35,861 bases of DNA from Bacteroides sp. (GTDB lineage: Bacteria > Bacteroidota > Bacteroidia > Bacteroidales > Muribaculaceae). Below the pieces are notes generated by a model, which ran no database searches, was not told the DNA's origin, and saw only the letters and a program-made list of their open reading frames with translations. The position numbers and the translations under genes were made by a program. The stretch spans positions 1-35,861 of the forward strand of contig JAAVDM010000020.1 in NCBI GenBank assembly GCA_014801815.1, read 5' to 3'. Within the stretch, counting starts at the first letter, position 1, and the number at the start of each line of letters is the position of its first letter. Shown in pieces: positions 33,212-35,861 of the stretch.

Positions 33212-33239
33212 CGAGTTTTTACCCATTACAGCCATTATA

Positions 33240-33273
33240 GCGGCCGGACTATTAAAAACCATAGTCCGACCGC
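33240..33273 (+). terminator. Hairpin after the hut operon
   Basis: Arms 33240-33252 (gcggccggactat) and 33261-33273 (atagtccgaccgc) pair at 12 of 13 positions around an 8-nt loop, 28 nt after the last hut gene. There is no U-tract, so a terminator role is inferred from position. Confidence 0.5.
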
Positions 33274-33310
33274 CATGATAGTTACAATACATGACAATAT
33301 CTGATATTTT

Positions 33311-33361
33311 AGCCTTTTGTCTCAACTCACACCACTTCCTTTTTTGTGTCAGCCTTTTGTC
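33311..33361 (+). repeat. Direct repeat agccttttgtc, two copies
   Basis: Exact 11-bp copies at 33311-33321 and 33351-33361, 40 nt apart, in the gap between the hut operon and the small-membrane-protein array. They may be regulatory or chance; I see no good promoter here. Confidence 0.5.
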
Positions 33362-33469
33362 CGGGCCAAGTTAAAGCTATTTCCTAATAAATGTAAGTGT
33401 GTCTATAATCAAAGGCATCAATCTGCCCCTTTCTCAAATTTAAAACTGATACTGATAGTTCTGACTGCC

Positions 33470-33730
33470 ATGAATATCCTTCTTTTATTTTTTTATCTCA
33501 TATTTTTAGCAATCATATTGATAGGCATAATATACGCTTTCAAACTCTTTATCATGGTAATCGGCTACGGTACGGCATGGATAATCTTTCAGATTGCAAA
33601 GCTCTTTGGCTTTAAGGCCAATAACCGTGTGCACAATAAAAATCGTAACACCGTTTCTGAATCTCCGCACTGTACAGGCTGGTGTGATAAGTGCCTGTCT
33701 TGGCCCTGCCGTCCTATGAAAAAGGTATAA
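33470..33730 (+). CDS. Small membrane protein with Cys-rich tail, array copy 1
   Basis: I place the start at ATG 33470. A longer frame opens at 33317, but 33470 is preceded by AGTTCT-N7, the same leader found before the other two copies, and the protein then starts with a membrane helix. The 86-residue product has two hydrophobic helices (about residues 2-22 and 26-46), a basic linker and a tail SPHCTGWCDKCLSWPCRP with four Cys. The tail should be cytoplasmic or periplasmic depending on topology and could bind metal or form disulfides. Family unknown to me. Confidence 0.7.
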   Translation: MNILLLFFYLIFLAIILIGIIYAFKLFIMVIGYGTAWIIFQIAKLFGFKANNRVHNKNRNTVSESPHCTGWCDKCLSWPCRPMKKV

Positions 33731-33910
33731 ACCTCTGCGGGTCGAGCTAGGTGCTCACCCACAGCTACAACAGCGCACATACCTGTAATCTCATCACCTC
33801 CCAGCGCTGGTGCATCTAACCGGCCACCTCATCACCCCATCCTCTGTACAGTATAATCAGCTCCGACACCGTCCTCAAATCTGAAACCCATACTAATAGT
33901 CCTGCAACCC
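33731..33910. repeat. Duplicated block, copy A (between array copies 1 and 2)
   Basis: It aligns with 34436-34588 over most of its length. The block shares GCGGGTCGA, ACCCAC, an identical 19-nt core (33792-33810) and CATAATCAGCTCC-like sequence near its end. The last 40 nt also resemble the leader of copy 1 (33432-33469). The 19-nt core includes ATCACCTCC, the anti-Shine-Dalgarno sequence of 16S rRNA; on the minus strand it reads GGAGGTGAT. Confidence 0.75.
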
Positions 33911-34157
33911 ATGGATAAATTTCAATTATCGATTTATGTATTGTGCGTAATCATCGAGCTTATCGGCTGCCTGATGATTGTGCTTATTGCCATAAAAGCC
34001 GTTCTCTATGACACAGTACAAGTTTTCTCATTTACCTCTAAGAGTATGAGCTGGATCCGCTCTGTTTTTTCAGGAAGCTAAATATTTACCTTCTGCTTCC
34101 CGCTGTCCAAAGCGTTACTGTAACGACTACACAAAGTGTCCTTATTGCAAAGAATAG
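33911..34157 (+). pseudogene. Small membrane protein, array copy 2, frameshifted at a T6 run
   Basis: ATG 33911 follows AGTCCT-N7, as in copies 1 and 3. The frame encodes one or two hydrophobic helices and stops at 34079-34081 after 56 residues. The +1 frame after the T6 run (34065-34070) continues QEAKYLPSASRCPKRYCNDY then TKCPYCKE to a TAG at 34155-34157, which is the Cys tail expected from the other copies (C-x4-C-x5-C-P-Y as in copy 3). One T fewer would restore a full protein of about 81 residues. It is a decayed, phase-variable or programmed-frameshift gene. Confidence 0.7.
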
Positions 34158-34168
34158 TTCTATCCAGC

Positions 34169-34435
34169 ATGAAAGCTTTGTACGTTCTTTATATTATACT
34201 ATGGGTAGCGGGCGCAGGCTCAATACTCCTACTTTTCTTTACTGTGATTTTGTCAGGTATTCTATGGGTGTTTGAGGGAATTATATGGATATTATGTCTC
34301 ATCTATCCTGACAAATCTCCGGCCAGACACCGTGCTCACGGTAAAAATCAAACCTCGCCTTCTGGTCCTCACTGCTCGGAGCGCTGCTGCGGTGACTGCC
34401 GGACGTGCCCGTACCGTCCCACAGAAAAGGAATAA
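34169..34435 (+). CDS. Small membrane protein with Cys-rich tail, array copy 3
   Basis: ATG 34169 follows AGTTCT-N7, the leader shared with copies 1 and 2; a longer frame from 34136 would overlap the copy 2 tail. The 88-residue product has two hydrophobic helices (about residues 2-22 and 24-46), a basic linker and the tail GPHCSERCCGDCRTCPYRP with five Cys. PHC and the C-terminal RP plus Lys pattern match copy 1; C-x4-C-x5-C-P-Y matches copy 2. The three form a tandem family. No function can be assigned. Confidence 0.72.
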   Translation: MKALYVLYIILWVAGAGSILLLFFTVILSGILWVFEGIIWILCLIYPDKSPARHRAHGKNQTSPSGPHCSERCCGDCRTCPYRPTEKE

Positions 34436-34588
34436 TCCTCAGCGGGTCGAACTCTCTATTTACCCACGACTGCAGCATGGCATATACGTAAGCGCATCAC
34501 CTCCCAGCGCTGGCGTATCTCACCTGTAACCTCGTCACCCCATGACCTGTAAAGCATAATCAGCTCCAGTACAGTCCTCAGTAAATGG
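34436..34588. repeat. Duplicated block, copy B (after array copy 3)
   Basis: This is the second copy of the block at 33731-33910, with the same 19-nt core at 34495-34513. Differences between the copies fall mostly on third positions of one minus-strand frame (reading ELIMLYRSWGDEVTG in this copy), which suggests former coding sequence on that strand. In copy A that frame has a stop. Homology ends near 34588, where the integrase remnant starts. Confidence 0.7.
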
Positions 34589-34589
34589 C

Positions 34590-34883
34590 CAATCCTTGGT
34601 CTTTATGCGAATATTATCTATCGTAGTCGTTGTATTCCAGCAACGCTGCCTTAAATACCTGTCTGTAGGCATATAGGATATATTTTTTGGCTCTTTTTGC
34701 GCTTGCCATATAATTTTATACACCGCTCGATTACATAGGTTGTAAGGACGCTAAAATTGATTCTATTGCTCCAGATATATTTCTCAAAATGGGTTATCGC
34801 CATTTCATAGTTCCGGGCATTGCGTACCTGTCCTGCGTCCTGAATGGAGTGTATGTATTTGCGGTAAGTAGATGTTGAAAATT
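34590..34883 (-). pseudogene. Tyrosine recombinase (integrase) N-terminal remnant, frameshifted
   Basis: Minus-strand translation gives STYRKYIHSIQDAGQVRNAR, then NYEMAITHFEKYIW and KKSQKIYPICLQTG; after a frameshift RQVFKAALLEYNDYD; and after another NIRIKTKDWP. Together these match the SAM-like N-terminal core-binding domain of Bacteroidales phage-type integrases, in three frames. The catalytic domain is absent. The left limit is where the duplicated block begins; the right limit is near the start of the IS630 element. It shows that this patch once belonged to, or received, an integrative element. Confidence 0.72.
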
Positions 34884-34884
34884 A

Positions 34885-35861
34885 GTTTATATCAAAATTT
34901 TTGTGGTTGTTGGTGCGTTATAGAGATGAACCATAACAAATACGACTATCGCAAAAATCAAAGTTATACAACTGACAGACAAGCAACGTCTGCAACTTGA
35001 AGAGGGCTTTCGCCAAGGCAAGAGGCACGCATTTCGTATGCGCTGCCGCGCAATACTGCTAAAAGCCAGTGGTCTGACCTCCAAAGAAGTTGGGATACAG
35101 ACAGAAATGACACATATATCCGTCAACTCCTGGGTGAAACGGTTCGAAAACGAAGGCATCAAAGGTCTGGAGACACGCCTCGGACGGGGACGCAAACCAA
35201 TCATGGACTGTTCAGACGAGGAAGCCGTACGCCTTTCTATCGAGAACGACAGACAGAGCGTGATGAAAGCCAAATAGGCGTGGCAGCAGGCATCCGGAAA
35301 GGAGGCGAGCGAGAGTACCTTCAGGGCTTTTTTATCCGCATTGGCGCGAGATATAGACGTATAAGGAAACGTCCTGAGGGTAAGCCCTCGCCGCAGCTCT
35401 ATGCGTATAAGACCGAGAAGCTGCAAGAACTCGAAAGACAGGCAGTTGCCGGCACCATTGATCTCTATTACGGAGATGAAAGTCACATATGTACAGAAGG
35501 TTATGTGCCTTATGGCTGGCAGTTCCGAGGAGAGGAGGTATATATTCCATCTGAAAGAGGCCTCCGGCTCAATATCTTCGGCATGATTGACCGCAATAAC
35601 CGTTATGAGGGCTTCTCCACAACTGTGAATATGACGGCTGAAAGAATCGCTGACTTTCCTGACAGAGTGTCGATGTGTATCGGTAAGAACACATTTGTGG
35701 TGCTGGACAATGCCAGCGTACACAGGTGTAAGCTCATCAAGAAACTTCGCCCGATATGGGAAAAGCGAGGCCTGTTCATCTTCTTTCTTCCGCCATACAG
35801 TCCTCATCTGAATATCGCTGAGACTCTGTGGCGAATCCTTAAGGGCAAATGGCTCAAACCT
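34885..35861 (+). mobile_element. IS630-family insertion sequence, 5' part (cut by window end)
   Basis: This holds a degraded transposase and about 45 nt of upstream sequence. The left terminus should be near 34880-34895, where the integrase homology stops; I could not identify the repeat exactly because the right end is outside the window. Confidence 0.65.
34930..35861 (+). pseudogene. IS630-family transposase, broken by a stop codon and a frameshift
   Basis: The reading frame opens after an in-frame TGA at 34927 and has no ATG before 35038, so the native start is lost. It encodes the helix-turn-helix domain (VIQLTDKQRLQLEEGFRQGK, RAILLKASGLTSKEVG, VNSWVKRFENEGIKGLETR). A TAG at 35275-35277 interrupts KAK-AWQQASGK, and near 35355 the frame shifts. 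The second frame carries the DDE domain: YYGDESHI, VVLDNASVH and PHLNIAETLWR, running off the window. A long minus-strand frame opposite it is a shadow. Confidence 0.85.

Follow-up and report, generated by a model that had tools for sequence, protein, structure and literature searches.

The contig JAAVDM010000020.1 of Bacteroides sp. (Muribaculaceae; assembly GCA_014801815.1) contains three consecutive small open reading frames (ORFs), which begin at positions 33470, 33911 and 34169 of the forward strand and are referred to here as copies 1, 2 and 3. The analysed stretch of 35,861 nt (the window) is one contig of a draft genome (63 contigs, 79% complete). The initial annotation of this DNA took the ORFs for a tandem array of undescribed small membrane proteins. 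The small ORFs are real, yet the array is not free-standing; it is set among remnants of phage tail genes. On sequence evidence, the leader common to the three copies is the start, read in antisense, of a phage tail tape-measure gene (TMP), and the 3′ region common to copies 1 and 3 is an antisense remnant of the short gene preceding TMP. This short gene is called TAC (tail assembly chaperone), a name given by position only. In related phages, a single opposite-strand gene for a membrane protein recurs between TAC and TMP. By analogy with gp15 of phage HK97, we propose that the small genes of the window are superinfection-exclusion morons starting at tape-measure remnants, an assignment whose chances we rate as about even. 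The small genes are the following:

33470..33730, forward strand: copy 1, small membrane protein of 86 aa; ORF intact, four Cys in the tail.
33911..34081, forward strand: copy 2, membrane part of 56 aa; the ORF stops before the Cys tail.
34077..34160, forward strand: Cys tail of copy 2, in the +1 frame relative to the membrane part.
34169..34435, forward strand: copy 3, small membrane protein of 88 aa; ORF intact, five Cys in the tail.

A DNA search with positions 33212-34100 against 111 genomes of the genus revealed one other genome, G268, which matched only the leader of copy 1. The match comprises 43 bases (33421-33463) with 84% DNA identity to a tape-measure remnant. In G268, the strand opposite to the leader is the start of an ORF (MSNRTISIGFKFENGADGFRNL...), while the forward strand opens a membrane ORF at the same CATG. 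The downstream frame of 196 aa in this genome matches tape-measure families (PHROG 991, E 1e-9; PHROG 28, E 7e-9). On the reverse strand, the motif AGTYCT-N7-ATG, which is indeed present at the starts of all three copies, reads as an ATG-NNN-NNN-AGR-ACT start (Met-x-x-Arg-Thr) that overlaps with the forward ATG. What had been regarded as a kept leader of the small genes is instead formed by the opening codons of a tape-measure gene, seen from the reverse strand. Relatives of the G268 tape-measure start were detected in 14 of the 111 genomes, G268 included, and 11 of the 16 matches are located in frames of at least 431 aa. The tape-measure-start profile, rebuilt without G268, matches the window at 33492-33421 (E 6e-4) and 33921-33835 (E 0.034); its score of 16.8 bits compares with 9.2 bits for the best of 40 shuffled windows. 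The corresponding remnants in the three units, numbered as the copies, are:

33421..33471, reverse strand: tape-measure start remnant of unit 1, MAVRTISISFKFEKGAD; best of 1900 window frames with the profile built without G268 (E 6e-4).
33868..33912, reverse strand: tape-measure start remnant of unit 2, MGCRTISMGFRFEDG; second of the 1900 frames with the same profile (E 0.034).
34153..34170, reverse strand: tape-measure start remnant of unit 3, MLDRTI, very short (18 nt); by reading of the sequence, with no profile match of its own.

Copies 1 and 3 are also followed by a conserved 3′ region, not mentioned in the initial annotation, and this region turned out to be no less informative than the leader. 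The two 100-nt stretches (33778-33877 and 34481-34580) are 79% identical to each other. In many of the genomes with a relative of the G268 tape-measure start, as judged by eye, that start is preceded by a tail-tube-like gene and by two short ones, of which the second encodes about 100 aa; the annotation of phage F4 shows a tail tube gene and two short hypothetical genes at the corresponding place. It is this second short gene, TAC, that the 3′ regions of the window resemble on their reverse strand. A TAC profile built from seven relatives has its top two matches among the 1900 window frames at 34602-34459 (E 0.0033) and 34496-34302 (E 0.022), followed by a third at 33815-33768 (E 0.48). The window scores 14.6 bits with this profile (13.9 bits for the best of 40 shuffled windows). 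All five matches to the TAC and tape-measure profiles occur at the predicted places and on the predicted strand. The TAC remnants are:

33596..33878, reverse strand: TAC-like gene remnant of unit 1, interrupted by several stops; it lies opposite the 3′ part of copy 1, with a profile match at E 0.48 only.
34302..34581, reverse strand: TAC-like gene remnant of unit 3, split between two frames; it lies opposite the 3′ part of copy 3, with profile matches at E 0.0033 and 0.022.

Copies 1 and 3 are associated with both TAC and tape-measure remnants and copy 2 with a tape-measure remnant only. The TAC remnants of units 1 and 3 are truncated at approximately the same codon. In unit 2, which has no TAC, the tail directly adjoins unit 3. 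Taken alone, the codon-position bias of the 3′ region is weak (6, 4, and 11 of 21 differences) and would be equally compatible with wobble sites in a forward frame, but that frame contains stops in both copies. Structured RNA in the 3′ region was rejected (z-scores of -1.2 to 0.5 and no Rfam match). Integron-like cassettes were dropped, without an attC test, once the region proved to be a TAC remnant. Among 297 genomes of the family, the 3′ core pattern was found in the window's own genome only. Occurrence of the 19-base 3′ core in two viral contigs was attributed to chance, as similarity ends beyond about 21 bases.

The place between TAC and TMP was surveyed in 96 loci, comprising the best 80 of 135 from one search, locus L096, and 15 loci from the genus. 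Loci L094, L095, L098, and L099 were left out because their contigs were already among the 80, and the G268 locus (L078) was not counted; some contigs occur twice. Both genes, located on one strand, were recognized in 80 loci; the other 16 gave no profile match to one or both. The gap between the two genes is at most 20 nt in 30 of these 80 loci, 21-99 nt in six, 100-700 nt in 43, and 3540 nt in one (L169, excluded from clustering). The slot is, therefore, empty in the 30 loci with the shortest gaps, and the gap in the isolated Bacteroides phage F4 is 7 nt. The 43 gaps of 100-700 nt form 26 sequence clusters, not all of which are independent (L128 and L133 are related). An ORF with an ATG start, a length of 35 aa or more, and a membrane segment is present on the opposite strand in 24 of the 26 clusters and on the same strand in one, as compared to 58 of 1300 dinucleotide shuffles of the gaps (4.5%). 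The two failing clusters (L083/L087 and L096) also hold an opposite-strand membrane ORF, which is below the threshold. In many related phages, the slot holds one opposite-strand gene, and the proteins range from 35 to 143 aa. Coding constraint is evident in two pairs of phages, L128-L131 (ratio of nonsynonymous to synonymous divergence, dN/dS, 0.11; p 5e-5) and L128-L133 (dN/dS 0.15; p 4e-4). Eight of the phage slot proteins had no PHROGs match at E 0.01 and gave three weak Pfam matches below the cut-off. No second array was found; it is the single opposite-strand membrane gene that recurs elsewhere, so the check proposed initially, for homologous arrays, was aimed at the wrong unit.

Two further observations concern the same slot. 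In one phage group (L096, positions 1343-1792; also L143), it additionally carries a same-strand ORF of 149 aa, which we take to be lysozyme-like, so the slot accepts other cargo too. Genome G268 contains a second decayed slot (L077, positions 1-957 of G268:C225) with a truncated tape-measure piece displaying a frame change and an open divergent membrane ORF that runs off the contig end.

Many slot genes are preceded by a putative Bacteroides-type promoter of their own. The sigma-ABfr consensus is described as TAnnTTTG at -7 and TTTG at about -33 (PMC7366714). We scanned 70 nt upstream of the slot genes for TAnnTTTG and at about -33 for TTG. The -7 motif was found in 18 of the 26 genes (9.8% in shuffles) and the combination of both motifs in 12 (0.9% in shuffles), while the other strand of the same upstream windows gave one of 26. 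An element placed between genes that adjoin each other in relatives, and in many cases equipped with a promoter motif of its own, bears the marks of a moron.

HK97 gp15 is a known superinfection-exclusion moron. Its gene (NC_002167, 8203-8391; 'moron product') is located between the chaperone frameshift product and the tape-measure gene, that is, in the same slot between tail chaperone product and tape measure. The protein has 62 aa, a hydrophobic N-terminal part, and a charged tail. The exclusion function proposed here is deduced from this shared slot and build; the slot proteins may work like gp15, and we do not claim that they are gp15. With the observed slot, strand, and motif, the opposite-strand gene could presumably be expressed at a time when the late tail genes are silent. 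Its product would be anchored by the hydrophobic N-terminal half in the inner membrane of the lysogen, where it would meet the tape-measure protein and block DNA injection by phages with a matching one. The basic stretch that follows the hydrophobic half of the small proteins suggests a cytoplasmic C-terminal tail, whose Cys residues, together with His that also occurs in the tails of copies 1 and 3, could bind metal. In the window, units of at least two diverged phages would have been stacked head to tail. Two of the three small ORFs are open, and the rest of these phages is broken or gone.

Exclusion by membrane proteins that block injection is described as being overcome by changes in the tape-measure protein (PMC10883804). 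Among such exclusion proteins, Ltp of phage TP-J34 and Sie2009 of Tuc2009, the block by TP-J34 is reported to be overcome in this way (PMC10883804). Ltp, compared by description only, differs in being a surface-exposed lipoprotein of Streptococcus thermophilus phages (PMC3952083). The tail assembly blocker Tab of phage JBD26 is likewise prophage-encoded and acts through the tape-measure protein, but on assembly rather than injection, and the available portion of the source mentions no membrane anchor (PMC10884400). SNIPE is membrane-located and associates with tape-measure proteins during injection; in contrast to the slot proteins, it is a nuclease with a DUF4041 domain and is described as a bacterial defence system (PMC13190303). 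An opposite-strand membrane gene between chaperone and tape-measure genes of Bacteroidota phages was not encountered among the open-licence titles and abstract beginnings listed.

The three ORFs are present as initially described and have hydrophobic N-terminal halves according to hydropathy. In dinucleotide shuffles of positions 33432-34588 (forward frames only), at least one ORF of at least 50 aa with a membrane-like stretch appeared in 46 of 2000 cases, at least two in none, and at least one membrane-like ORF with a Cys tail in a single case. A short protein with an N-terminal membrane segment, as expected of gp15-type morons, is indicated by both hydropathy and the structure model. The model of copy 3, obtained with AlphaFold2 from a three-row alignment (mean pLDDT, the per-residue confidence score, 69), shows one long helix at residues 2-45 and a low-confidence tail, not the two clear helices proposed before. 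The C-terminal Cys cluster stands for copies 1 and 3; the ORF of copy 2, as read, ends without it, the tail being in the +1 frame.

Selection on this tail, also suggested initially, has partial support. The tails of copies 2 and 3 share 9 of 18 aligned residues, 7 of them via different codons, and the test for constraint, in which saturated synonymous sites were capped, yields p 1e-5. Between copies 1 and 3, p is 0.046 for the Cys part but only 0.26 for the 36-residue tail as a whole. All these tests used alignments guided by the protein sequence, a procedure biased towards synonymous differences. Since the tails of the second pair, copies 1 and 3, both run antisense to TAC, the conservation in this pair is confounded and may come in part from the other strand. 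Opposite the tail of copy 2, no TAC sequence is visible, and still C, R, D, and CPY are retained there with changed codons. The Cys tail is, probably but not surely, under selection. The 5′ halves of the TAC remnants of units 1 and 3 differ with dN 0.20 and dS 0.92 (p 5e-4), and the two units, therefore, probably diverged while TAC was still functional. This speaks for an origin of the units in different phages rather than for duplication of a dead unit; the stacked units likely come from at least two phages.

Homologues were searched for with copy 3, with its relative P0001, and with a three-row profile of copies 1 and 3 and P0001; the protein search was word-based and of limited sensitivity. 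Among 5.8 billion proteins, it returned one relative, P0001, a protein of 62 aa from a 1057-bp contig of a Muribaculaceae metagenome-assembled genome. P0001 has a Cys cluster; none was noticed in the other genes of the slot. Among 198 genomes of the family, homologues occurred in the window's own genome only, and none were found in the genome_contigs or viral_contigs sets. Translated matches in plasmid and phage records (19 and 7 records; E 0.06-0.9) and the outcome of the corresponding DNA searches (none and one match, E 0.01) were judged to be chance. The profile matched 87 of 393 genomes of the order at E 0.1, own genome included; the matches in other genomes had E 9e-5 or worse, many with stops, and were taken as noise without being inspected singly. 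The family had initially been called unrecognized, and this holds: the small proteins of the window have no Pfam match above the cut-off and no PHROGs match at E 0.01, and PADLOC-DB gave no matches at E 0.1 for nine proteins (three from the window and six from phages). A 25-base exact match in the same frame (TVILSGIL) links the membrane part of copy 3 (34241-34265) with locus L004 (1501-1525) of G167, a genome of the same genus; it could be chance or a captured fragment.

Several of these results weigh against an exclusion function. The Cys-tailed family has only one known relative, and the PADLOC-DB search was negative. The gp15 gene is on the strand of the tail genes while the slot genes are opposite; the gp15 sequence contains no Cys, and comparison with copy 3, the alignment of copies 1 and 3 with P0001, and the L128 protein revealed no meaningful similarity. 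The matches of the window to the TAC and tape-measure profiles are weak singly, the PHROG of TAC is labelled 'unknown function', and with the G268 tape-measure start as query no match in the window's own genome reached E 1e-3. Copy 2 is frameshifted and lacks a TAC remnant. Of nine phage pairs, only the two named above show clear constraint; one is identical, four are saturated, and L083-L087 and L130-L148 have milder ratios with few changes. The promoter evidence is uneven as well. The -7 motif precedes 16 of 17 genes from viral contigs versus only two of nine from the window's genus, and the slot gene of G268 has no exact motif. No exact TAnnTTTG occurs within 150 nt upstream of the window copies; within 70 nt, copy 1 has one site with one mismatch, at -14, and copies 2 and 3 have none. 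The two of nine genus genes make an exclusion function somewhat less probable and a dead relic somewhat more so.

Such a relic, made of decayed prophage pieces in which two frames are open by chance or because decay is recent, is a real possibility, somewhat short of even chances. The tape-measure and TAC pieces are broken, the neighbouring integrase is truncated, copy 2 is frameshifted, no exact promoter motif lies upstream of the copies, and a short frame may take some time to close in the absence of selection. Against this, stops or a frame change are present in both TAC remnants, yet two of the three small ORFs are open, and the Cys tail displays a synonymous excess, though part of it may predate decay. 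That the small ORFs are nothing but chance antisense frames over TAC is highly improbable: the Cys tails of copies 1 and 3 do run antisense to TAC, but the membrane part lies outside it, the tail of copy 2 is maintained through changed codons with no TAC opposite, and neither the 24 of 26 gap clusters (4.5% in shuffles) nor the dN/dS values of 0.11 and 0.15 fit chance frames.

Other functions can be envisaged for a real gene. Small membrane proteins are typical of lysis, toxin-like, or lysogenic-conversion roles, and the opposite-strand ORF could be one of these, unrelated to superinfection. We consider this unlikely, since the slot is that of HK97 gp15 and the housekeeping-type promoter motif in 12 to 18 of the 26 genes points away from late genes and thus from late lysis. 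Alternatively, the membrane protein could act at a stage later than injection and target the assembly of tails by the incoming phage. Tab of JBD26 offers a precedent, being prophage-encoded, constitutively expressed, and described as recognizing the tape-measure protein (PMC10884400), and the slot adjoins TAC and the tape measure. The membrane segment found in 24 of 26 gap clusters fits injection better than cytoplasmic tail assembly, which makes this mode of action quite improbable.

If the slot genes are superinfection-exclusion morons, each phage would carry a guard next to the protein that the guard recognizes. To our knowledge, phages of gut Bacteroidales have so far yielded few exclusion genes. 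The occurrence of varied small membrane genes in one fixed slot provides a simple rule for locating candidates, which should be sought immediately upstream of the tape-measure gene on the opposite strand, and makes the matching of guard and tape-measure protein testable. To judge from the stacked array, guards may be retained by hosts even when the phage itself is lost. In its widest form, the array would be a chromosomal scrapbook, in which exclusion genes of at least two, perhaps three different phages are kept head to tail, the rest of each phage having been lost, as a gene-based immune memory, their source being a dedicated antisense exclusion slot widespread in Bacteroidota-type phages; we offer this speculatively and hold it to be rather unlikely as a whole.

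The array is located beside a truncated integrase and a DDE_3 transposase, in agreement with the initial view of this region as accessory DNA. The integrase remnant is:

34596..34864, reverse strand: tyrosine integrase, N-terminal piece, truncated; DNA matches of 82%, 81%, and 68% to integrase genes of G225, G288, and G279.

An origin of the truncated integrase in these tail phages appears unlikely: no close relative of it was found among 15 stretches of eight genomes, which do not cover every prophage whole, and the one match had 25% identity. Both contig ends are in transposase genes (34900-35861, DDE_3; 1-833, mutator-type as judged by eye), which suggests that the assembly breaks at repeats and that the accessory DNA may continue elsewhere. 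Genome G286 keeps the array-flanking gene of 188 aa (71% identical), followed by another gene and without the array, so the array is likely an insertion in the lineage of the window. In G225, ORFs beside the full-length integrase (L047; G225:C3, 793-2926) look like minor or pilot proteins of Microviridae, and we presume that this locus, adjacent to a ppdK-like gene, is possibly an integrase-bearing microvirus prophage.
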